The position numbers were made by a program, and so were the translations under genes. From Sporomusa sphaeroides DSM 2875 (lineage in GTDB: Bacteria > Bacillota > Negativicutes > Sporomusales > Sporomusaceae): a DNA stretch of 64,000 nucleotides. The stretch lies in contig NZ_CP146991.1 in NCBI RefSeq assembly GCF_001941975.2, forward strand, positions 228,501 through 292,500, given 5' to 3'. The notes below the pieces were generated by a model, which did not search any database, had not been told where the DNA came from, and was given only the letters and a program-made list of their open reading frames with translations. Below, piece after piece: positions 6,532-24,879 of the stretch. Each line of letters starts with the position of its first letter. Position 1 is the first letter of the stretch.

Positions 6532-7380
6532 ATGCTAACAGTACAGGCTTACGCCAAAATTAATTTGGCATTGGATGTCCTTTATAAACGGCCGGATGGT
6601 TATCATGAAGTGGCGATGATTATGCAGGCCGTCAATCTTGCCGATACTGTCACGTTGACCAGTCAGACCGGGGATATTACGCTCAATGTCAATATCCTGG
6701 GCTTGCCGGGAGATGCCAGTAATCTGGCATATAGGGCCGCCGCTCTGCTGCAGGAATATGCTGAGCCCGGACAGGGCGTCCATATTGAACTGGACAAGCA
6801 GATTCCGCTGGCTGCGGGTTTGGCCGGCGGCAGTGCCGATGCGGCTGCCGTGCTGAAAGGGCTTAATGAATTATGGGGGCTTGATCTTAGTCTTGACGAG
6901 CTTGGCAAGCTAGCGGCAAAGCTCGGGTCTGATGTGCCTTTTTGCTTATATAATGGTACAAAGCTGGCTACCGGACGCGGCGAGCTATTAGCACCGTTGC
7001 CGGCGCTGCCAGCTTGTTATGTTGTGCTGGCGAAACCGGCTATTGAAGTGCCTACTGCCTGGGTGTACCGGCAGTTTAAAGTAGAACAGGCCGGGCGCAG
7101 GCCGGACATTGCGGCTATGAGCAAGTATCTTGCCGAAGGTAATCTTGCCGGGGTGGCCGCTAATGTGGCCAATGTGCTGGAAAGTGTAACCATCCCGGCA
7201 TATCCCGAAATTGCCCGGATTAAAGACCATATGCTTGCTTACGGGGCTATGGCGGCTCTTATGTCCGGCAGTGGTCCGACGGTATTTGGCATTGTCGGCT
7301 GCCGGGATCAGGCGGAGGCTATTGCCGGGCGCCTGAGGGATGAAGGGGTGCCTGAGGTATTTGTGGCAGAAACAGTTTAA
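6532..7380 (+). CDS. ispE: 4-diphosphocytidyl-2-C-methyl-D-erythritol kinase
   Basis: 282 residues from ATG 6532, which places the AYAKINLALDV motif as close to the N-terminus as in other IspE proteins; ATG 6514 is an alternative that overlaps cheW. GHMP kinase signatures: KINL and RPDGYHEV near the start, PLAAGLAGGSADAAA (ATP-binding loop), and LMSGSGPTVFG near the C-terminus. It phosphorylates CDP-ME in the non-mevalonate isoprenoid pathway. It lies directly upstream of a GntR regulator. Confidence 0.95.
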   Translation: MLTVQAYAKINLALDVLYKRPDGYHEVAMIMQAVNLADTVTLTSQTGDITLNVNILGLPGDASNLAYRAAALLQEYAEPGQGVHIELDKQIPLAAGLAGGSADAAAVLKGLNELWGLDLSLDELGKLAAKLGSDVPFCLYNGTKLATGRGELLAPLPALPACYVVLAKPAIEVPTAWVYRQFKVEQAGRRPDIAAMSKYLAEGNLAGVAANVANVLESVTIPAYPEIARIKDHMLAYGAMAALMSGSGPTVFGIVGCRDQAEAIAGRLRDEGVPEVFVAETV

Positions 7381-7387
7381 AGGTGGA

Positions 7388-8077
7388 ATGAAAGTGGAGA
7401 GGCGATTAGTACCTATTAAATTAGACAGTTATAAACCGCTCCGGGAAGTAGTGGCTGAAACATTGCGTGAGGCTATCGCCACCGGCATATTGGAGCCTGG
7501 CGAACGGTTGATGGAAATTCAACTGGCCGAAGAATTGGGTGTCAGCCGGACGCCGGTCCGGGAAGCCATTCGCAAACTGGAGTTAGAGGGGTTTGTGGTT
7601 ATGATTCCCCGGCGCGGCACGTATGTGGCTGACTTAACGATAAAAGATATTAACGAAGTGTTTGAGATACGTACCGCGCTTGATGTACTGGCCGCCGGGC
7701 TGGCTGTAGAGCGGATCACCGAGGAGGAACTGGAACAGATGGAGCGGCTGCTGGTGGAAATCGGCGATTTAAGTGTGCAAGGTGATGCCGATAAAATTGT
7801 TGAAGCCGATGGCCAGTTTCACGACCTTTTGTACAGAGCCAGCCGTAACGACCGTTTGGTAGGTATTATTAATAATCTTAGAGAACAAATTACCCGTTTC
7901 CGTTCGATTTCTATGCAATATCCGGGACGTATCCAGAATACAGTGGATGAACACCGGCGTTTGGTGGAGGCTATTGCCAGCCGCAATACCGACCTGGCTC
8001 AGCAAATTGCCCGTGAACACATGGAAAATTCTGAACAAACCTTGCTGCAAGATTTGAACGAACGTCGTCGCGCGTAA
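7388..8077 (+). CDS. GntR family regulator with FCD domain
   Basis: 229 residues from ATG 7388 (AAAGGTGG upstream, seven bases after the ispE stop). The N-terminal winged helix (about 12-75) contains LMEIQLAEELGVSRTPVREA, the classic GntR helix-turn-helix. The C-terminal all-helical FCD domain (about 80-220) carries the Asp/His metal or ligand site; FHDLLYRAS and EHRRLVEAI are typical. FadR-subfamily regulators respond to small organic acids. The ligand here cannot be read from the sequence. It is part of a gene string with ispE and the NTP transferase. Confidence 0.92.
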   Translation: MKVERRLVPIKLDSYKPLREVVAETLREAIATGILEPGERLMEIQLAEELGVSRTPVREAIRKLELEGFVVMIPRRGTYVADLTIKDINEVFEIRTALDVLAAGLAVERITEEELEQMERLLVEIGDLSVQGDADKIVEADGQFHDLLYRASRNDRLVGIINNLREQITRFRSISMQYPGRIQNTVDEHRRLVEAIASRNTDLAQQIAREHMENSEQTLLQDLNERRRA

Positions 8078-15670: not shown

Positions 15671-16894
15671 ATGCTTACAACACTTTACGCGGATAAAAAC
15701 GGAGAAATATTTGATGCTCCCGGTTGTCCGGCGGCGGGGCGTCTGGGAGAAACCTGTCTGGCCTTGCGGCCGGAAGACATGATTCCGCTGCCGGAAGGGG
15801 CGCAAATGATGTTTCTGCCGGGACGGGATGCGCTCTGCATGGCAGACGGCGCTGTCCGCAAGCTAAAGGGACGCCTGGCGGTGGCCGCTATGCTGCCTGT
15901 CGGCTATACCCGCACCTTGCTGCCTGCTTATACAAACCGTCCGAATGCACCGCAGCTGCCCTTATATGGCTATACGGCAGCCGCACTGGTTAATGATGAG
16001 ATTTATGTGGCCGCACACAAAACAGCAGATAACGCCAAATGGCATCCTTACCGCTATAACACCCCCGGCTTAAAGAAACGGGTAGCGCAGGTCAAACGGG
16101 ATTTGCCCAATAACCGTCTGGTAGAGCATTTGGCTAATTGTTCGCTGGTCTGGCACTGCTGTACCGCGCAGAACCTTTTTTACCGGCGGTGGGAAGCCGG
16201 TATTCCTGTTTCACCGGCCTGTAACGCCAATTGTCTGGGCTGTATTTCGCTCCAGCCGTCAGAATGCTGCCCGGCACCGCAGAGCAGAATCACGTTTGCT
16301 CCCAAGCCGGCAGAAATCGCTGCCATCGGCTTGTACCACCTGACCCATGCGCCTGATCCCATTATCAGTTTTGGCCAGGGGTGTGAAGGTGAGCCCTCGC
16401 TGGCAGCTGAGGCTATTGCCGACAGTATTACGCGTATCCGGAGCAAAACGGCACGCGGCCAGATTAACATTAATACCAACGCCGGCTTCACCCAGGGGAT
16501 CAAAACCATTGCAGATGCCGGTTTAAATAGTATGCGGGTAAGTATTATCAGCGCTTTGCCGGCTACCTATCAGGCTTATTATCAAACACAGTACAGTCTT
16601 GATGATGTTAAAAGCTCCATTGCCTACGCCAAACGGCAGGGCGTATATGTCTCACTCAATATGCTGCTGTTTCCCGGGCTTAACGACCGCCGGGAGGAAC
16701 AGGCTGCGTGGCTGGAATTCCTGGCAGAAACCGGTGTAGACATGATCCAGCTCCGCAATCTTAATTTTGATCCTGATGCCTTTTTGGCAGCCATGCCCGC
16801 AGGCGGTCAGCCTGGCGGCATAAGACCTTTCCTCCAAGCCATTACCGACAATTTGCCGGCTGTCAAGCTGGGGAGTTTTACGGAAATAATATAG
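15671..16894 (+). CDS. Radical SAM protein with long N-terminal extension
   Basis: 407 residues, ATG 15671, eight bases after pth. The [4Fe-4S] radical-SAM cysteines are Cys184, Cys188 and Cys191 (CNANCLGC, CX3CX2C). This is unusually far from the N-terminus: about 180 residues precede the core. SFGQGCEGEPSL resembles the GGE motif region, and SMRVSIISALP follows later. A second Cys-rich stretch (SECCPAP at 197-203) comes right after the cluster. The substrate is unknown. The context with pth and glmU is conserved-looking housekeeping. Confidence 0.85.
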   Translation: MLTTLYADKNGEIFDAPGCPAAGRLGETCLALRPEDMIPLPEGAQMMFLPGRDALCMADGAVRKLKGRLAVAAMLPVGYTRTLLPAYTNRPNAPQLPLYGYTAAALVNDEIYVAAHKTADNAKWHPYRYNTPGLKKRVAQVKRDLPNNRLVEHLANCSLVWHCCTAQNLFYRRWEAGIPVSPACNANCLGCISLQPSECCPAPQSRITFAPKPAEIAAIGLYHLTHAPDPIISFGQGCEGEPSLAAEAIADSITRIRSKTARGQININTNAGFTQGIKTIADAGLNSMRVSIISALPATYQAYYQTQYSLDDVKSSIAYAKRQGVYVSLNMLLFPGLNDRREEQAAWLEFLAETGVDMIQLRNLNFDPDAFLAAMPAGGQPGGIRPFLQAITDNLPAVKLGSFTEII

Positions 16895-16907
16895 TGGTTA
16901 TAGCAAA

Positions 16908-16939
16908 AAAACGTTTTGTGTTATTGCACAAAACGTTTT
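16908..16939. terminator. Hairpin, left twin
   Basis: AAAACGTTTTGTG pairs with CACAAAACGTTTT around the loop TTATTG. It lies between the ends of two convergent genes (radical SAM and RpiR 1) and can serve both. It is identical at all but one of 32 positions to the core of the hairpin at 23758-23809. Confidence 0.75.
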
Positions 16940-16950
16940 ACCATTTTGAA

Positions 16951-17802
16951 TTAATAGTGGTAATTAAGCAATTTTGCAAGCTCTTCGGTGTCTGCTAACC
17001 TTTTAGTCACCTTTGACCTTGCTGTTTGCGATAATTCTGTTATTAAAAGATCGGCAATATATAGCGGTGCCGTCATCGAATTGTGATAGGATAAGCTGTC
17101 ATATTCGCAAGGTAATATAATATCCGAGTACGGTACTAACGGTGCGGCAAAGCCATCAGTAATTGTTATTATTGATGGCTTTCTTAATTTTCGGATGGCC
17201 TTTACCATTTCTATTGTGGAGTTGGCATAACGTGGCAGGCTAATTACAATCATCAAATCATCGGTGGTAATATTTAAAATTTGATCAATGTCTTGCCCTG
17301 CAGGGGGAAGCAGTTCACAATTATCCAGCTGTTGGGCTAAGGATTGGTACAAAAAGAAGGCAATAGTAAAGGAAGTTCTTGCACCCAAGAAATAAATACT
17401 TTTAGCTTTTTTAATAAGTCGTATTGATTCTTGAATTACTTCTTCGGTTAGCATTTCCTGAGTATTTTTAATATTATCTATCTGTTTTTCAGCACATTTT
17501 GTTATCAGAGAAGTTTCGTTAGCCATTTCCAGGTTCTTTTCGAGCCTGGATTCCGGGGATAACTTTCTCCGGATATAGTTTTGCAGTTCTTTTTGCAATT
17601 CGGAATAGCCGCTAAAGCCTAGACTGAAAGCAAAACGCATAACCGTAGTGGTGCTGGTGCCAATACTTGCGGCTATTTGATCAAGGGTTTGAAAAGATGC
17701 TTCGACAAGATTATTTTGAATATATTCAGAAACCTGAAGCTGTGCTTTGGTTAAATCATTAGTGCTGCTTTGGATTTTTTGCAATATGTTTAGTTTCATC
17801 AT
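16951..17802 (-). CDS. RpiR family regulator (RpiR 1)
   Basis: 283 residues, ATG 17802. An N-terminal RpiR helix-turn-helix domain (about 1-80) contains LDQIAASIGTSTTTVMRFAF. The C-terminal SIS sugar/ligand-binding domain (about 125-260) has IYFLGARTSFTIA and IVISLPRYANSTIEMVKA. The ligand is likely a phosphorylated or carboxylated small molecule; it cannot be read here. The gene is divergent from the MFS exporter gene, and the shared intergenic region carries phased direct repeats that are candidate operators. A paralogue of the same length lies at 22868. Confidence 0.92.
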   Translation of the reverse strand: MMKLNILQKIQSSTNDLTKAQLQVSEYIQNNLVEASFQTLDQIAASIGTSTTTVMRFAFSLGFSGYSELQKELQNYIRRKLSPESRLEKNLEMANETSLITKCAEKQIDNIKNTQEMLTEEVIQESIRLIKKAKSIYFLGARTSFTIAFFLYQSLAQQLDNCELLPPAGQDIDQILNITTDDLMIVISLPRYANSTIEMVKAIRKLRKPSIITITDGFAAPLVPYSDIILPCEYDSLSYHNSMTAPLYIADLLITELSQTARSKVTKRLADTEELAKLLNYHY

Positions 17803-17840
17803 ACCATCCTAACTCCTGCCAATATCTTTGTTATCTATTA

Positions 17841-17979
17841 TAGTATCTTAATTTATGAATTGGCAATGTTTTTGAATTTTCAGGTCATATTCTTGACATT
17901 TGGCAAATGAGGTAGTATTCTAAAATTGCAATTGTAGTATTTAATACAAATTTATTTAAATATTATAGTATTTAATACA
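17841..17979. promoter_or_regulatory. Phased TAGTATTTAATACA boxes, candidate RpiR operators
   Basis: Two exact copies of TAGTATTTAATACA lie at 17935-17948 and 17966-17979, 31 bp apart (three helical turns). Each contains the dyad GTATT-T-AATAC. Weaker copies are TAGTATTCTA at 17913 (22 bp, two turns upstream) and TAGTATCTTA at 17841. The 17913 copy overlaps the -10 element of the MFS promoter. Confidence 0.7.
17893..17921 (+). promoter_or_regulatory. Sigma-A promoter for the MFS gene
   Basis: TTGACA (17893-17898), a 17-bp spacer, and TATTCT (17916-17921). The block TCTTGACATTnnnCAAATG recurs at 23844-23862 in front of the small 43-codon gene. Confidence 0.7.
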
Positions 17980-18021
17980 ATTAAAACAAGCAACCGGGCA
18001 ATTGTTGAAAGAAGGTAGCAA

Positions 18022-19224
18022 GTGGTACTTGATGAATGGAAAAAAGGCCTCTCCGTTCTTTGGTCGGTTCAGTTCATTGGTATGAGTGCGATCACTGGTG
18101 TTATTTCTTTTTTACCGTTATATGTAGCGCAGCTCGGCATAACGGAAGCTTCGGAAGCGGCAATGTGGTCTGGGGTTCTTGTGGGTTCTGCCGCTTTTTG
18201 CGCTGCTATTTCCAATCCCTACTGGGGTGCGATGGCTGACCGCAAGGGCCGGCAGTTGATGGTAGAAAGAGTCTTGTTCCTGTTTGCGTTAATTATCTTT
18301 GCGATGGCTTTTGTCTCTAATGTGTATCAACTGCTGTTTTTACGGATACTACAGGGGCTTTGCGGCGGGTTTGTCGCAGCTTCTACCGCATTAGCGGTGA
18401 GTATGATACCAAAGGAAAAAATAGCCGCGACAGTGGGAATGCTGCAAACATCTCTTATCATCGGCGGGGCTATGGGGCCAATGCTTGGCGGCTTCATTGC
18501 CGACCGCTTCGGTTATCGCCAGCCGTTTATTGCATTTGGCATACTTTGTATAGTGGCACTGGGGGTCACTCATTGGGCAATCACCGAAAAACATTCGCCT
18601 GTTCCGGCTGTCGACAAGCCTTCCCTCAAAGCAACCTTTGCTTCTGTGTGGTCAGTAAGTGATTTAAGGCTGATGCTTTTGGTGCAATTCCTTACGCAAT
18701 TTGCAATACATAGTATTGGTCCAATTTTACCTTTATTTATCCAAACAATCCTATCAACCCCAAACAATCTTGCGAGTATTTCCGGTTCTATTATTGCGAT
18801 TGTCGGAGTAACCAGTGCGATTGCTTCTGCCAGTATGGGGTTTCTCAGCAAGCATTTTTCTCATAAGCAAATTCTTATAACCGCCTCTTTGCTGGGTGGT
18901 ATTACGTTTATTGGCCAGCTGGCGGCACAGGATATTATTATGTTGGCTGTTTTGAGAGGTATCAACGGTTTATGCATCGGAGCCATGGTGCCAAGTTCCA
19001 ATACCATTATTGCTTTTCTCATTCCCGAATCCAAACGGGGGGCTGCCTTTGGGATGACCAACGGGGTTGCTCTCATGGGAAATGTTATTGGCCCTGTTTC
19101 AGCCGGTTTGCTATCACTGGTATTTGGGATAACAGCCATATTCTGGCTTACATCAATACTCTTTTTTCTGGTTTCTCTGCTGTTGTTCAGCAAGCTTGAA
19201 GGCCGTATGGAAGCCAGGCCTTAG
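18022..19224 (+). CDS. MFS transporter, drug/metabolite exporter type (DHA1)
   Basis: 400 residues, GTG start at 18022 with a weak GAAGGT upstream. About 12 hydrophobic segments. MFS motif A is ADRKGRQLMVER (between TM2 and TM3), and a motif C-like GAMGPMLGGFIADRFGYR lies near TM5, typical of antiporter-type DHA1 exporters. A second half with GAMVPSSNTII and AFGMTNGVALMGNVIGP completes the fold. It is divergent from RpiR 1 and probably controlled by it. Being an exporter next to an uptake symporter is odd; it may remove a toxic intermediate or analogue. Confidence 0.88.
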   Translation: MVLDEWKKGLSVLWSVQFIGMSAITGVISFLPLYVAQLGITEASEAAMWSGVLVGSAAFCAAISNPYWGAMADRKGRQLMVERVLFLFALIIFAMAFVSNVYQLLFLRILQGLCGGFVAASTALAVSMIPKEKIAATVGMLQTSLIIGGAMGPMLGGFIADRFGYRQPFIAFGILCIVALGVTHWAITEKHSPVPAVDKPSLKATFASVWSVSDLRLMLLVQFLTQFAIHSIGPILPLFIQTILSTPNNLASISGSIIAIVGVTSAIASASMGFLSKHFSHKQILITASLLGGITFIGQLAAQDIIMLAVLRGINGLCIGAMVPSSNTIIAFLIPESKRGAAFGMTNGVALMGNVIGPVSAGLLSLVFGITAIFWLTSILFFLVSLLLFSKLEGRMEARP

Positions 19225-19257
19225 TGAAGGGTATTAACGCGATACGGAAGGAAGAAG

Positions 19258-19312
19258 GTCAACAATTTATATTTTTGTTGAATTTAATTCAACAAAAATA
19301 TAAATTGTTGAC
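19258..19312. repeat. Perfect 55-bp palindrome
   Basis: 27 bp (19258-19284) are exactly reverse-complemented in 19286-19312 around a single T at 19285. The right arm ends inside the -35 element TTGACT (19308-19313) of the symporter promoter. It lacks a T-tract, so it is not a standard terminator. It may be an operator, or a cruciform-forming element. Confidence 0.9.
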
Positions 19313-19336
19313 TATTATCCGATAGAATGATAATAT
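19308..19336 (+). promoter_or_regulatory. Promoter of the symporter-aldolase-aminotransferase operon
   Basis: TTGACT (19308-19313), a 17-bp spacer and TAATAT (19331-19336). The -35 overlaps the right arm of the 55-bp palindrome. A 5' leader of about 130 bases precedes the symporter start. Confidence 0.65.
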
Positions 19337-19473
19337 GAATTTGCAGAAAGTTATCGGGTTAAGCAGAAAATTGGATGCAGCAAGGAGGTATGGATCGGGT
19401 TAACGGCAGTTGCGGTAGGCAGAAGCTTTTGGCGTATCAGTCTTATTACAAATTTTAGGAAGGGGTTGTATTC

Positions 19474-20712
19474 ATGAAGATCGTTTTGACGGGGAAAAAG
19501 GGGATTCCTGCCCAGATAGTTATAGCCTTTATTCTTAGTATTGTAGTCGGCTTGCTGTATCCCGCTTTTTCGAAGTCCATTAAGCCGTTGGGAGATATTT
19601 TTATTACACTGATCAGAATGATTATTGTACCGGTAATTTTTTGTACGATTACCACCGGTATTGCCGGTATGGGTGACATGAAGAAACTAAAGCGGGTAGG
19701 CACTAAGATGCTGGTGGTTTATGTTGGCATGACTTTTGTGGCCTGTGTTATTGGATTGGGCGTAGGCTATCTGGTCCGTCCGGGAATGGGTGTTACGATG
19801 GCGACAACGGAGGCCTTCACCCAGGCGGTTAAAACACCAAGTATCGGCGACTTTTTAATGATGATGATACCCTCAAATTTTGTGGGGGCGCTGGCTAAAG
19901 GCGATATTGTGCAGGTTTTGGTACTGGGCATTTTTGTGGGGGTTGCTCTCGTAGGCCTCGGCAACAGGGCTTCGGCGGTTAAAGACTTATTAGAGCAAGG
20001 CGCAAGAGTCAGCTTTTACATCATCGACATTATTATGCTGTACTCGCCCATTGGTGTATTTGCACTGATGGCTAATGCGGTGGCAGTTTACGGGGTTTCA
20101 GTCTTTGGGGCGATGATGAAATATATTCTTGCCGATTATCTTGCGGCGCTGATTATTGCGGTCCTGGTTTTTATCCTGCCGTTGATGTTGTATGCGCGGA
20201 TCAATATCTTTAAAGCATTCAAAGATATTGGCGCGGTGTTCGTTATGGCTGCATCAACCTGCAGTAGTGCGGCTACCCTGCCTTTGGCGATGGAAACCGC
20301 TACGAAAAAGTATAAACTGCCGCAATGGCTTGTTGACTTTTGCCTGCCGCTGGGCGGTACGGTCAATTCCACGGGAGCCGCTATGTATAAGGCGATTCTC
20401 ATTGTTTTTGCCGCTGACTTTTATGGACTTACGTTGTCTATCGAACAAATGGTTGTAACGGTGCTGATTTCGACCATGTTGTCTGTTGCTGCGCCGGGAA
20501 TTCCCGGTGGCGGGATTGTGATGAGCGCTATTATGTTGAACCTGATGGGGCTGCCGTATGAAATTGCCGGTATGCTTGCCGGTATATACCGGATGATTGA
20601 TATGGCCCATACCCCGCTGAATGTAGTTGGCGATATTGCCGGCGCGATTCTGATTGGCAAAAGTGAAGGCATTTGGTCAAATGAAGAATATATGAGGGAA
20701 GAAGAAGCCTAA
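19474..20712 (+). CDS. Dicarboxylate/amino acid:cation symporter (DAACS, GltP/DctA type)
   Basis: 412 residues, ATG 19474 with AGGAAGGGG upstream. It has about eight hydrophobic helices and two re-entrant-loop regions. TCSSAATLPLAMETA is the serine-rich hairpin motif, and GGTVNSTGAAMYKAI (variant of NMDGT-type region) and GIPGGGIVMSAIML follow, all typical of Na+/H+-coupled glutamate/aspartate/C4-dicarboxylate carriers. It would import a negatively charged amino acid or dicarboxylate. It is first in an operon with an RraA-family aldolase and an aminotransferase, which suggests import of a branched or hydroxylated glutamate-like compound (inference). Confidence 0.92.
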   Translation: MKIVLTGKKGIPAQIVIAFILSIVVGLLYPAFSKSIKPLGDIFITLIRMIIVPVIFCTITTGIAGMGDMKKLKRVGTKMLVVYVGMTFVACVIGLGVGYLVRPGMGVTMATTEAFTQAVKTPSIGDFLMMMIPSNFVGALAKGDIVQVLVLGIFVGVALVGLGNRASAVKDLLEQGARVSFYIIDIIMLYSPIGVFALMANAVAVYGVSVFGAMMKYILADYLAALIIAVLVFILPLMLYARINIFKAFKDIGAVFVMAASTCSSAATLPLAMETATKKYKLPQWLVDFCLPLGGTVNSTGAAMYKAILIVFAADFYGLTLSIEQMVVTVLISTMLSVAAPGIPGGGIVMSAIMLNLMGLPYEIAGMLAGIYRMIDMAHTPLNVVGDIAGAILIGKSEGIWSNEEYMREEEA

Positions 20713-20746
20713 CTGTGGGCAGTTCAAAGGCGAAGAGGAGGTAATT

Positions 20747-21439
20747 ATGTCAAACGCAGGCTGCAGAATCTTTTTAAAAATTAACCGTCCCGACAGAGAG
20801 CTGCTGGAAGGTTTTAGCGGTGTACCGGTGGCCAATATTGCTGATGAAATGAATCGCTTCAGTTGTGTGGATGCGCGGATTAAGCCTTTTAACTCCCGCC
20901 CTTTGCTGGGGACGGCCTTTACCGTGAAAGTAAGAGTTGCCGACAATTTGCTGCTTCATAAGGCGTTAGAACTGGCCCAGCCTGGAGATGTTATCCTGGT
21001 TGATGCCCAGGGAGATATGGCCAATGCGATAACCGGTGAAATTATGATGCTGACAGCCGACAAGAAAGGCCTGGCCGGTGTGGTTGTCGATGGGGCGGTG
21101 CGTGATGCCAAGGCATTGCAAGAATTGAATATGCCTGTATATGCGGCGGGGGTTACGCCCAGGGGGCCGTACAAGGACGGTCCCGGTGAAATCAATGTGC
21201 CGGTATGTATTGGCGGGGTGGTTGTCAACCCCGGGGATATTGTGGTCGGGGATGCGGACGGTATTGTAATCATCAATCCGGCCGATGCTGTGTCGATACA
21301 GGCAAGGGCTAAGGAAAAGCTGGTTAAAGAGCAGGCGATACTTCAGGGAATCAGGGATGGCCTTCCCCGGGACAAAAGCTGGGTGGATAAAACTCTAAAA
21401 GCGCTGAACTGCGAGATTATTGATGATTACTATCGGTAA
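20747..21439 (+). CDS. RraA-family protein, likely 4-hydroxy-4-methyl-2-oxoglutarate aldolase-like
   Basis: 230 residues, ATG 20747 with GAGGAGG upstream. The family contains HMG/CHA aldolases (which give pyruvate), oxaloacetate decarboxylases, and the RNase E inhibitor RraA. PGDVILVDAQGD and GVVVDGAVRDAKAL are present; Arg and Asp of AVRD match the substrate Arg and metal-binding Asp of characterised aldolases. It therefore looks catalytic rather than a pure regulator. Lying between a dicarboxylate-type symporter and an aminotransferase, it probably cleaves a 2-oxo acid produced by transamination. Confidence 0.85.
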   Translation: MSNAGCRIFLKINRPDRELLEGFSGVPVANIADEMNRFSCVDARIKPFNSRPLLGTAFTVKVRVADNLLLHKALELAQPGDVILVDAQGDMANAITGEIMMLTADKKGLAGVVVDGAVRDAKALQELNMPVYAAGVTPRGPYKDGPGEINVPVCIGGVVVNPGDIVVGDADGIVIINPADAVSIQARAKEKLVKEQAILQGIRDGLPRDKSWVDKTLKALNCEIIDDYYR

Positions 21440-21510
21440 AGGCAGCAGCTTGCCCTGCCGGATGCGGCAAACCAAGAATACCAATACGCAAAAGTATGGG
21501 AGGGTTTAAT

Positions 21511-22701
21511 ATGATTTCCAAACGGGCGCGTGAAGTTCAAATTTCTCCTACGGTGGCATTAACCGGAAAAATAGCTGAGCTTAAGCGGCAAGGGACAGAC
21601 ATCATTTCCTTTAACATTGGTGAACCGGATTTTCCCACACCGGATTATATAAAAAAAGCGGCTTTTGACGCCATTAATCAGAATTTTACCAAATACCCGC
21701 CTGCCAGCGGCTTTTTGGATCTGAAAGAGGCAGTGGCATATAAACTGCAGGTTGATAATGGAGTAAACTATGAACCCAAGCAGATCTGCGTGAGCAACGG
21801 GGCAAAGCAGGCAGTGGTTAATGCCCTGTACGCATTGTGCGGCGAGGGGGATGAAGTAATTATTCCGGTGCCTTGCTGGGTAAGTTATACTGAGATGGTT
21901 AAGTTGACCGGAGCCGTATCGGTGTTAGTCAAGGTCGATGAAAAAAATGGTTTTGCGCTTGATCTTGAGGCCATTGAGTCAGCTGTAACGCCACGCACTA
22001 AGGCGATCATCATCAATACACCCAACAACCCGTCCGGAGCGGTATACAGTGAGGAGAGCCTGCGGCAGCTTGCCGCTATGGCAGTGAAACACGATTTTTA
22101 TATAATTTCAGATGAGATTTATGAAAAACTTGTTTTTGATGGGGAAAAACATTTTTGTATTGGGTCGATCTCGCCTGAGGTGCAAGACCGGTGTGTAATT
22201 GTCAACGGGGTGTCCAAAGCATATGCCATGCCGGGTTGGCGGATTGGTTATTCTGCCGCTGCCAAACCGATTGCCAAAGCAATCGAAGCATTTCAAAGCC
22301 AGATGACTTCAGGAGCCTGCTCTGTTTCGCAAAAAGCGGCGCTTGCGGCAATAACCGGGCCGCAGGACGACCTGTATAACATGCGGGAGGAATATGATAA
22401 ACGACGGCATTTTATGCAGAAGCGGCTTAATGAACTAAATGGTTTTGCCTGTGACCCGGTTAAGGGAGCCTTTTATTTACTGCCGGATATTTCCGGACTG
22501 CTGGGCCGGTCATATGCCGGAAAAACGATTGACAGCTCTATGGAGCTTGCAGCCTTTTTGCTGGAGAGAGCTCATATTGCGGTAGTACCGGGGGAAGCGT
22601 TCAACACTAAGCACAAATTGCGGTTTTCTTATGCGAATTCAATGGAGAATCTGGCAGAGGGGCTTAACCGGATTGAAGCCGCTATTGCCCTGTTGAGCTG
22701 A
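21511..22701 (+). CDS. Class I/II pyridoxal-phosphate aminotransferase (aspartate aminotransferase-like)
   Basis: 396 residues from ATG 21511, 13 bases after GGGAGGG; the in-frame ATG at 21496 precedes the binding site. Fold-type I motifs: FNIGEPDFPTPDYI near the N-terminus, NTPNNPSGAVYS, SDEIYEKLVFDG, and the PLP lysine in GVSKAYAMPGWRIGY. A C-terminal Arg in KLRFSYA binds the alpha-carboxylate. It moves an amino group between an acidic amino acid and a 2-oxo acid. Third gene of the operon; a hairpin terminator follows at 22742. Confidence 0.92.
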   Translation: MISKRAREVQISPTVALTGKIAELKRQGTDIISFNIGEPDFPTPDYIKKAAFDAINQNFTKYPPASGFLDLKEAVAYKLQVDNGVNYEPKQICVSNGAKQAVVNALYALCGEGDEVIIPVPCWVSYTEMVKLTGAVSVLVKVDEKNGFALDLEAIESAVTPRTKAIIINTPNNPSGAVYSEESLRQLAAMAVKHDFYIISDEIYEKLVFDGEKHFCIGSISPEVQDRCVIVNGVSKAYAMPGWRIGYSAAAKPIAKAIEAFQSQMTSGACSVSQKAALAAITGPQDDLYNMREEYDKRRHFMQKRLNELNGFACDPVKGAFYLLPDISGLLGRSYAGKTIDSSMELAAFLLERAHIAVVPGEAFNTKHKLRFSYANSMENLAEGLNRIEAAIALLS

Positions 22702-22741
22702 TCAACGGATTTTGGTATACGGTGTTTTAAAGATTGAGTAC

Positions 22742-22798
22742 AAAGCCTTGTATCTTTTGGCTGTGTTATCATAGCCAAAGGATGCGAGGCTTTTGTTT
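22742..22798 (+). terminator. Terminator of the symporter operon
   Basis: A long imperfect stem: AAAGCCTTGTATCTTTTGGC pairs with GCCAAAGGATGCGAGGCTTT around GTGTTATCAT, followed by TTGTTTG. Confidence 0.75.
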
Positions 22799-22810
22799 GT
22801 TATGGAGGTA

Positions 22811-22845
22811 CAATTGTTGCACAATTGATATCTTTGTGATAGTCT
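22811..22845 (+). promoter_or_regulatory. Promoter region of RpiR 2 with an inverted repeat
   Basis: CAATTGTTGCACAATTG (22811-22827) contains two CAATTG half sites. A candidate promoter is TTGCAC (22817-22822), a 17-bp spacer and TAGTCT (22840-22845). The inverted repeat overlaps the -35, as would fit self-repression. Confidence 0.45.
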
Positions 22846-22867
22846 AAAATTGGTATAGGTTAGGGGG

Positions 22868-23719
22868 ATGGTAGTGGATTACATCGAAAGTAAAATCAAA
22901 GGAACCTCATTAACAAAAACAGAAGAAAAAATTGCGAGTTATTTTTTAGAGCATAAAAATCAATTTTGTTTTAAGACAGCGACAGATTTAGCGCTTGATA
23001 TAGGGGTAAGCGACACATCCATAATACGGTTTGTGAGAACACTTGGGTTTAATGGGTATGCTGATTTCCAGAAACACATGAAAGAGAATATAGTTCAGCA
23101 AATATCTGAATCCGGTTCGCCGTTGCAACGGCATAAAAAAGCGATTGAAAGAGGGCATATCAGTAATATGGCCGGAGAATTGCTGATGACCACGCTGGAA
23201 AATCTGAATAAGACCTATGATAAGATAGATATGGGTGTTATTGAAACCATTACAAATGTTCTTATTAAGAGCAGGAATAAATATATTGTTGGTTTTGGCG
23301 GGACGGCATCGGTTGCGCATTTTATGGAAAATAAGCTAGGCTGTTTTTTGCCTAATTGTCAAGGGATTTTCCATGCAGATGTTGCTGCGGTACATAGGAT
23401 TGCAGATATTACGGAGAAAGACTGTATTGTATTATTCACATTTCCCCGGTACACAGAGATGGCTCTTTCGCTGGTTGAAATTGCCCAGAGAAAAAAAGCT
23501 GAGATTATAGTTATTACAGATAAAATAACATGCCCTGTAGCTTTTTATGCCGACATAGTATTGACAGCTTACGTGCAGACTATGGGCTTTTGCAATTCCT
23601 ATATAGCACCGTTGTGGATTGCTGATTTGATTATATTGGCTGCCAGTGAAAAGAACACCGGGAGTGAAGGCAGAATAGAGCTGATCGATAAATATGTGAA
23701 TAAACATAAGCTGTATTAA
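22868..23719 (+). CDS. RpiR family regulator (RpiR 2)
   Basis: 283 residues, ATG 22868 (GGGGG upstream); a GTG four codons later is a weaker alternative. The N-terminal helix-turn-helix has ATDLALDIGVSDTSIIRFVR. The SIS domain begins near YIVGFGGTASVAH and contains VLFTFPRYTEMALSLVEIA, matching the SLPRYANSTIEMVKA stretch of RpiR 1. The two proteins have the same length but clearly diverged sequence. The gene stands alone behind the aminotransferase terminator and is followed by the right twin hairpin. Confidence 0.92.
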   Translation: MVVDYIESKIKGTSLTKTEEKIASYFLEHKNQFCFKTATDLALDIGVSDTSIIRFVRTLGFNGYADFQKHMKENIVQQISESGSPLQRHKKAIERGHISNMAGELLMTTLENLNKTYDKIDMGVIETITNVLIKSRNKYIVGFGGTASVAHFMENKLGCFLPNCQGIFHADVAAVHRIADITEKDCIVLFTFPRYTEMALSLVEIAQRKKAEIIVITDKITCPVAFYADIVLTAYVQTMGFCNSYIAPLWIADLIILAASEKNTGSEGRIELIDKYVNKHKLY

Positions 23720-23757
23720 AGCTGGAAATCTAATTTCATGAGAGGAATAACGGGAAA

Positions 23758-23809
23758 CAATATATAAAAAACGTTTTGTGTTACTGCACAAAACGTTTTT
23801 TATATATTG
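23758..23809 (+). terminator. Hairpin, right twin
   Basis: A perfect 23-bp stem (23758-23780 and 23787-23809) has loop TTACTG. Its core AAAACGTTTTGTG-TTACTG-CACAAAACGTTTT differs at one base from the hairpin at 16908-16939. It lies 38 bp after the RpiR 2 stop and contains a T-run in the descending arm. Confidence 0.8.
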
Positions 23810-23845
23810 AGGCAATTTTTTAACGCCGGTTTCTCAATTTATATC

Positions 23846-23874
23846 TTGACATTAAACAAATGTAGTTGTATCAT
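23846..23874 (+). promoter_or_regulatory. Promoter of the small 43-codon gene
   Basis: TTGACA (23846-23851), a 17-bp spacer and TATCAT (23869-23874). TCTTGACATTaaaCAAATG here matches TCTTGACATTtggCAAATG at the MFS promoter (17891-17909). Confidence 0.65.
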
Positions 23875-23937
23875 GTATTAAAAACGTGTGTATATAGTAT
23901 AAAGTGTAACTATGTAACTAAGAGGGTGGTGTTACTG

Positions 23938-24069
23938 GTGGAAAAAAAGCGTGAAAATGTGGAAATTAAACCCGGCAAGGAAGACTTGCATCCAGGAGAA
24001 TTCAACGAATTAGGCAGTCTTGATCCCAATGTCGATCAAACTCTGATGCGTTTGTCTGGTACGGTATAA
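23938..24069 (+). CDS. Small charged protein of unknown function
   Basis: 43 residues from GTG 23938, nine bases after GAGGGTGG (in-frame GTGs at 23926 and 23929 overlap that site). The protein is hydrophilic: a lysine/glutamate-rich start (MEKKRENVEIK), then ELGSLDPNVDQTLMRLSG. It has no cysteine, no membrane segment and no recognised domain. It has its own sigma-A promoter and its own strong terminator, so it is a genuine monocistronic unit. The promoter block is shared with the RpiR-linked MFS gene, which suggests joint control. I do not recognise a family. Confidence 0.6.
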   Translation: MEKKRENVEIKPGKEDLHPGEFNELGSLDPNVDQTLMRLSGTV

Positions 24070-24074
24070 TTCAT

Positions 24075-24117
24075 AGCCGGAATTCAGTGGCAGCTGGAAT
24101 TCCGGCTTTTTTTTTTT
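24075..24117 (+). terminator. Rho-independent terminator of the small gene
   Basis: The perfect 11-bp stem AGCCGGAATTC/GAATTCCGGCT (24075-24085 and 24097-24107) is followed by ten T. Confidence 0.92.
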
Positions 24118-24219
24118 GCAGGATTTGCTGTTATTGGTAAAGAATTAGAAGAATATCCGGTTGCCGCATAACAAAAAATATCCTTGCGCTGGGAGAAACC
24201 TTGCAGGAGGGCAGGATTA

Positions 24220-24879
24220 TTGAAAAACGGCAATTATATTAAATATGCTTTTGGCAGCCGCTGCTGCCATGTTGATGCCGTGCATGCCGCTTCGCCGAGA
24301 GCCGACCGCTTTACTGATGAGATTGTGACCGGTATTATGGCAAAAACAGGCTGTGCCGGTATTATCGGCACCGTTTCCCGTACTATTGCCGACCTTAACC
24401 GGCCGCCAGGCCAGGGCAACGATGAAGCTGTGTGGGAATACCGGGATGTTATCAGCCAGTTTCTTTATCATTCGGGACTGTTGGCACCGGGCGACAGAAA
24501 CCTGGCAAGTCCATATCTGCATGTTGGCATTCACGGGATGAAAGACCAGCTCCATGGCCCGCTAAGTATTGAGGTGGGAACCATCTATGGCAAAACCTGT
24601 TCTGTGGGGGTCAGAAAATGGTTTGGTGAAACCCTGAAAGCCAGAATGAAGACTGTTTTGCCGGGAACGAAAGTGGTTTTTGATAAACATTGGGTGGGCA
24701 ATCAGTCGCTGGCCGCACATCGTTGGGGCGAAGGACGGCGGTATTCGGGCTATGGGAAAAATTACAACGCGTTCCAGGTAGAAATTGCCCGGACGCTCAG
24801 AGAGCATTACCGCCCGGAGGTCATTGCGGTATTAGCCGGGGTGGTTGCAGAATTTAGTGGTATGTTTTCCAGGAGGTAA
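24220..24879 (+). CDS. N-formylglutamate amidohydrolase-like protein
   Basis: 219 residues from TTG 24220, nine bases after AGGAGGG; upstream in-frame codons lack a binding site. VHAASPRADRFTDEI and GTVSRTIADLNRPPG resemble the conserved DlNR block of the N-formylglutamate amidohydrolase family, and LHVGIHGMKD supplies His/Asp/Glu candidates for a metal site. The family hydrolyses N-formyl amino acids, but many members are only related by fold. It overlaps nothing and lies five bases from the next gene, so the two form a pair. Assignment is at family level only. Confidence 0.6.
   Translation: MKNGNYIKYAFGSRCCHVDAVHAASPRADRFTDEIVTGIMAKTGCAGIIGTVSRTIADLNRPPGQGNDEAVWEYRDVISQFLYHSGLLAPGDRNLASPYLHVGIHGMKDQLHGPLSIEVGTIYGKTCSVGVRKWFGETLKARMKTVLPGTKVVFDKHWVGNQSLAAHRWGEGRRYSGYGKNYNAFQVEIARTLREHYRPEVIAVLAGVVAEFSGMFSRR

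Follow-up and report, generated by a model that had tools for sequence, protein, structure and literature searches.

A perfect 55-bp palindrome ahead of the DAACS operon of Sporomusa sphaeroides: a possible lineage-specific operator downstream of a conserved RpiR1 control region

The palindrome and the genes around it

The window, a stretch of 64,000 nucleotides from Sporomusa sphaeroides DSM 2875 (contig NZ_CP146991.1, positions 228,501 to 292,500), contains a 6.9-kb cluster made up of RpiR1, an MFS gene, a palindrome, the DAACS, RraA and aminotransferase genes, and RpiR2, the whole bracketed by two copies of a 34-bp direct repeat (Table 1). The palindrome is the longest perfect inverted repeat in the window. 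It is separated by 33 bp from the MFS stop codon (19224) on its 5′ side and by 161 bp from the DAACS start (19474) on its 3′ side. A separate dyad, CAATTGTTGCACAATTG, is located at 22811-22827 upstream of RpiR2 and is a candidate autoregulatory site.

Table 1. Coordinates of the cluster and of the sequence elements within it (window positions).
Feature	Position	Strand	Basis or remark
Left copy of 34-bp direct repeat (hairpin)	16906..16939	.	
RpiR1, HTH_6 + SIS regulator	16951..17802	-	Conserved next to the operon (four genomes)
Promoter TTGACA-17-TATTCT of the RpiR1-controlled operon, 5′ of MFS	17893..17921	+	Common to four genomes
First GTATTTAATAC box, likely RpiR1 operator	17937..17947	.	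Alignment, pattern scan
Second GTATTTAATAC box, likely RpiR1 operator	17968..17978	.	Alignment, pattern scan
MFS transporter, MdtG-like	18022..19224	+	
Perfect palindrome, 55 bp	19258..19312	.	Inverted-repeat search; base composition; copy count; class-wide scan
Left internal dyad TCAACAA-N9-TTGTTGA, candidate operator half	19259..19281	.	
Right internal dyad TCAACAA-N9-TTGTTGA	19289..19311	.	
Putative secondary promoter TTGACT-17-TAATAT, -35 overlapping the right-arm end	19308..19336	+	Promoter scan
DAACS transporter, sodium:dicarboxylate symporter family	19474..20712	+	
RraA-like aldolase/decarboxylase family protein	20747..21439	+	
Class I/II aminotransferase, aspartate-transaminase-like	21496..22701	+	
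Intrinsic terminator 3′ of the aminotransferase gene	22744..22791	+	
RpiR2, second RpiR-family regulator	22868..23719	+	
Right copy of 34-bp direct repeat	23766..23799	.	33/34 identical

The inverted-repeat search returns two arms of 27 nt (19258-19284 and 19286-19312) that are 100% complementary around a single central T, at the same coordinates and with the same absence of mismatches as in the initial annotation. There are several prominent features. First, the sequence is extremely AT-rich, with only 10 of its 55 positions occupied by G or C (18%), and it is identical when read on either strand. Second, each arm holds a perfect 7-bp dyad of its own, with the two dyad centres 30 bp (about three helical turns) apart; this arrangement is infrequent in shuffled arms (p = 0.015), and the internal symmetry of the arms is the highest among 78 perfect hairpins sampled from the same genome. 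Third, the 55-mer folds strongly as single-stranded DNA (-24.2 kcal/mol, z = -11.4), and the MFS-DAACS intergenic region folded as RNA is far more stable than its shuffles (z = -6.65), the 27-bp stem staying intact. Finally, the right arm ends in TTGAC and supplies part of the -35 element of a putative promoter, which consists of TTGACT (19308-19313), a 17-nt spacer and TAATAT (19331-19336), with a TG preceding the -10. The elements of this promoter and their overlap with the right arm are thus present as originally described, but the score is close to background: the match is 9/12, and the region has 22 such sites as compared with 15.8 ± 4.0 in shuffled sequences. For these reasons we treat it as a putative and weakly supported promoter.

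The location of the palindrome shortly 3′ of a stop codon is one typically occupied by an intrinsic terminator, and perfect stems at such positions are frequent in this genome. However, the palindrome differs from long-stem intrinsic terminators in its 18% GC content, in having no GC core, and in having no T-run within or after the 3′ arm. The + strand RNA carries its U-run on the 5′ side of the stem and its A-run on the 3′ side (arm sequence AATTCAACAAAAATATAAATTGTTGAC, in which T runs are never longer than two), no T-tract follows the palindrome, as had been noted from the outset, and the order of U and A is wrong for a terminator on both strands. The terminator scan does not list the palindrome, and intrinsic termination is ruled out for either strand. 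The suggestion that a strong hairpin ends the MFS transcript therefore fails as intrinsic termination, given the missing U-tract and the A-rich 3′ arm. A role in RNA processing or in protection of a 3′ end is possible.

A conserved RpiR1 control region and an inserted cluster

Judging from sequence comparisons, the main conserved control of the operon is not the palindrome but the RpiR1 promoter with its two GTATTTAATAC boxes (17893-17978), located some 1.3 kb upstream of it. The promoter and both boxes are conserved in an alignment of four intergenic regions representing three families, namely those of the window, L171 (genome G003), L154 (G019) and L246 (G060). G003 and G019 keep the sequence of window positions 17850-17980 beside RpiR1, with a TTGACA-17/18-TATTCT-like promoter followed by two boxes, and nearly every copy of the box in these two genomes and in the window reads GTATTTAATAC. 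In G060, which belongs to another family, the class-wide pattern scan finds tandem boxes without a mismatch, flanked by an RpiR1 gene (85% identical) and an aminotransferase gene. In context the boxes read TGTAGTATTTAATACA, which is similar to the half-sites TGTAGT/ACTACA of the RpiR-family regulator RccR (PMC5489143), and the GTATTTAATAC boxes resemble these half-sites better than the palindrome does. RpiR1 probably binds the GTATTTAATAC boxes.

DAACS orthologues with matching neighbours are present in G003 and G019, with identities of 91% and 85%, respectively; the G003 locus and L039 of the MAG CTSoil_079 are one and the same. There is no MFS gene between the DAACS gene and the RpiR1 promoter in G003, and in G019 only the first part of the MFS gene is left, in degraded form, at the equivalent place. 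The comparison thus indicates that in the window the MFS gene stands between the DAACS operon and the promoter ancestral to it, with the palindrome in the gap so created. RpiR2 was not found in the orthologous clusters. The gap between RpiR1 and the DAACS gene in G019 (L154, ~6803-7494) contains the MFS remnant and, after it, an imperfect inverted repeat of another sequence (GTACACAATT...AATTGTGTAC). In G003 (L171, 10286-14988), which has the closest orthologous cluster, the order of the RraA and aminotransferase genes is swapped relative to both the window and G019.

The 34-bp repeats bracketing the cluster have the sequence AAAAAACGTTTTGTGTTA(T/C)TGCACAAAACGTTTT, and a genome-wide scan for their 30-bp core finds these two copies only. 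In the window a radical-SAM gene lies to the left of the left copy, and a promoter, a small ORF and an N-formylglutamate amidohydrolase-family (FGase) gene lie to the right of the right copy. An empty site is present in G005, G006 and G011, where the radical-SAM gene is followed directly by this promoter, small ORF and FGase gene, with an unrelated terminator-like hairpin in between. Because the flanks of the cluster adjoin each other in these three genomes, the most plausible account is that the cluster was inserted at a terminator in the lineage of the window. No transposase-like gene is seen among its main ORFs. In the window a small conserved ORF (23939-24070), ending LGSLDPNVDQTLMRLSGTV, lies upstream of the FGase gene, and similar sequence is likewise placed in G005, G006 and G011.

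Base rate of perfect hairpins and the search for relatives

Perfect arms of 27 bp are not due to chance. The longest perfect arms in order-2 Markov sequence (four 1 Mb runs each for genome-like and AT-rich intergenic composition; loop ≤3) are only 11-13. However, the same is true of perfect hairpins elsewhere in the genome: a sample of 2.05 Mb out of 5.0 Mb, analysed with crude ORF calls, contains 78 of them (arms ≥16, loop ≤10; 76 if the sequence pieces are scanned one by one), mostly at gene ends. The palindrome is the second longest of these, the longest having a 30-bp stem. Fifty of the hairpins are laid out as terminators, and for 40 of these 50 a stop codon is no more than 120 bp away. 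The initial annotation was correct that a chance origin is extremely unlikely, but since this holds for some 78 perfect hairpins in the sample, length alone fails to separate the palindrome from terminators. It is unusual in its low GC content, its missing terminator signature and its nested symmetry, rather than in its length.

Perfect palindromes with a GC content of 22% or less number six in the 2.05 Mb, and three have a MarR gene nearby: one is situated about 90 bp 5′ of a MarR start codon (ATG), another occupies the space between a MarR gene and divergently oriented TolC/RND-type efflux genes, and the third is at most 1 kb from a MarR gene. The two AT-rich perfect palindromes at MarR-gene promoters have arms of 22 and 16 bp (C1:4272742-4272789 and 4334268-4334301) and are likely to be MarR operators; one of the two precedes a TolC/RND-type efflux operon.

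The palindrome itself is single-copy in its genome. Scanning 380 genomes of the class for the four-half-site pattern, with up to three mismatches allowed, finds this locus only, the other 379 being without the palindrome, and no relative was found among the viral contigs and plasmids searched. A repeat family or mobile palindrome is ruled out by these results; the palindrome shares an intergenic location with REP-type and mobile palindromic repeats, but differs from them in being present once. An Rfam search of positions 16000-24500 gave no match. The near matches to TTGTTGAA-N5-TTCAACAA inspected in the same genome sit within genes and give no sign of a regulon, nor of a regulator gene carrying such a site for its own control; the sole intergenic exception in the half-site searches is a dyad with one mismatch (G000 3322158), which is about the number expected by chance. 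At the DNA level G010 gave a weak match (73% identity, E 1e-3), located at the start of a holB-like gene (DNA polymerase III delta-prime type); we attribute it to chance. The palindrome was also not brought along by the MFS gene, as homologues 50-72% identical lack it in the downstream stretch examined, and the best of them is instead adjoined by a divergent LysR gene.

Neither of the two intact DAACS orthologue loci (G003 and G019) contains the palindrome, which rules out a conserved operator of the operon. Absence from relatives was regarded in the initial annotation as evidence against its proposals, and the same RpiR1 promoter and operon do indeed occur there without the palindrome. However, these relatives also have no intact MFS gene at the site, so that conservation is refuted but function in this lineage is not.

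Operator, RNA hairpin and other interpretations

Most likely the palindrome is an ordinary protein-docking site, and less likely an RNA hairpin. Our tentative proposal is that it is a local, lineage-specific operator with two dyads serving the secondary promoter. Two 23-bp mirror-image dyads would accommodate a transcription factor next to the -35, either as two dimers or as a single tetramer, and the bound factor would block RNA polymerase there. The secondary promoter would give the DAACS-RraA-aminotransferase genes a separate start, because the MFS gene parts them from the ancestral RpiR1 promoter at 17893. We infer all three components, namely use of this promoter, binding of a protein to the palindrome, and repression. 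In favor of an operator are the dyads nested within the arms, for which a plain RNA stem has no need, and the reach of the right arm into the -35. The initial annotation had already suggested a large operator with room for two dimers; the arm dyads and the AT-rich palindromes at MarR promoters support it, whereas the searches yielded no regulator partner and no second genomic site for the TCAACAA half-site. Also against an operator are the background-level promoter score, the lack of conservation, a position after the MFS stop that is typical of an RNA hairpin, and the different boxes carried by the neighboring RpiR genes (including CAATTGTTGCACAATTG upstream of RpiR2).

Two types of regulator come into consideration, RpiR2 first and a MarR-type protein second. 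RpiR2 is as lineage-specific as the palindrome and is encoded just 3′ of the operon, which makes it the first candidate. RpiR proteins form tetramers and bind near-palindromes with varied linker length (PMC12713135; PMC5489143), and operators of the RpiR/HexR/RccR type are likewise inverted repeats. However, the GTATTTAATAC boxes associated with RpiR1 differ from the palindrome, and a direct reading of its sequence finds neither the HexR consensus TTGT-N7-8-ACAA (PMC5489143) nor that of RccR; the HexR half-site TTGT/ACAA is present, but with N13 in the same orientation and N9 in the other. The specific scheme in which an RpiR2 tetramer occupies a four-half-site palindrome, added once the MFS gene had intervened and conferring independent control on the DAACS-RraA-aminotransferase genes, is improbable as it stands. 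Operators of MarR-family winged-helix proteins are also AT-rich perfect palindromes at promoters, and two comparable palindromes lie beside MarR genes in this genome. In contrast, no MarR/TetR-type gene was found in the cluster, the palindrome is twice the length that one dimer needs, and the TCAACAA-N9-TTGTTGA half-site is unlike the two MarR-adjacent palindromes.

The main rival to an operator is an RNA hairpin, a stem in the MFS-DAACS message that is either cut by an RNase III-type enzyme or protects the 3′ end of the MFS portion, such that MFS and the downstream genes would differ in expression level. At 27 bp, a perfect duplex has sufficient length for RNase III, and the stem survives intact in the folded intergenic RNA. 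Read-through into the palindrome is expected because the conserved promoter is 5′ of MFS, and its distance from the MFS stop is within the range of most terminator-like hairpins of this genome. Nonetheless, an RNA element would leave the nested dyads and the -35 overlap as coincidence, there is no terminator signature, and the relatives have nothing comparable; we consider it rather unlikely, and favor the operator. Somewhat less probable again is a by-product of little function, either a quasi-palindrome perfected by template switching or a scar of the rearrangement by which the MFS gene and the cluster were joined. The single copy, the restriction to one lineage and the lack of a visible regulon would all fit such an origin, as would the recent changes in this stretch (an MFS gene that is absent or a remnant in relatives, and a cluster inserted between direct repeats), but unselected perfect symmetry tends to decay by mutation unless the event was very recent.

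It is very unlikely that the palindrome acts as a supercoiling-sensitive cruciform whose extrusion under negative superhelicity competes with opening of the secondary promoter. An AT-rich centre, long perfect arms and a strong single-stranded DNA hairpin favor extrusion in principle, and E. coli promoters are enriched in cruciform-capable repeats (PMC6060812), but a general enrichment is uninformative for one site and the promoter is weak. An assembly or sequencing artefact can be almost entirely discounted, as the assembly comprises two contigs at 99.99% completeness, 55 bp is short, and many other perfect hairpins lie at normal terminator positions.

The firmer results are the definition across three families of the RpiR1 control region of the DAACS/aminotransferase operon, and the evidence that this catabolic cluster was inserted as a unit between direct repeats. 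If the palindrome is an operator, the locus would represent a case of regulatory rewiring in which a gene came between a conserved promoter and its operon, the direct coupling to the old repressor was lost, and a new local site was gained.
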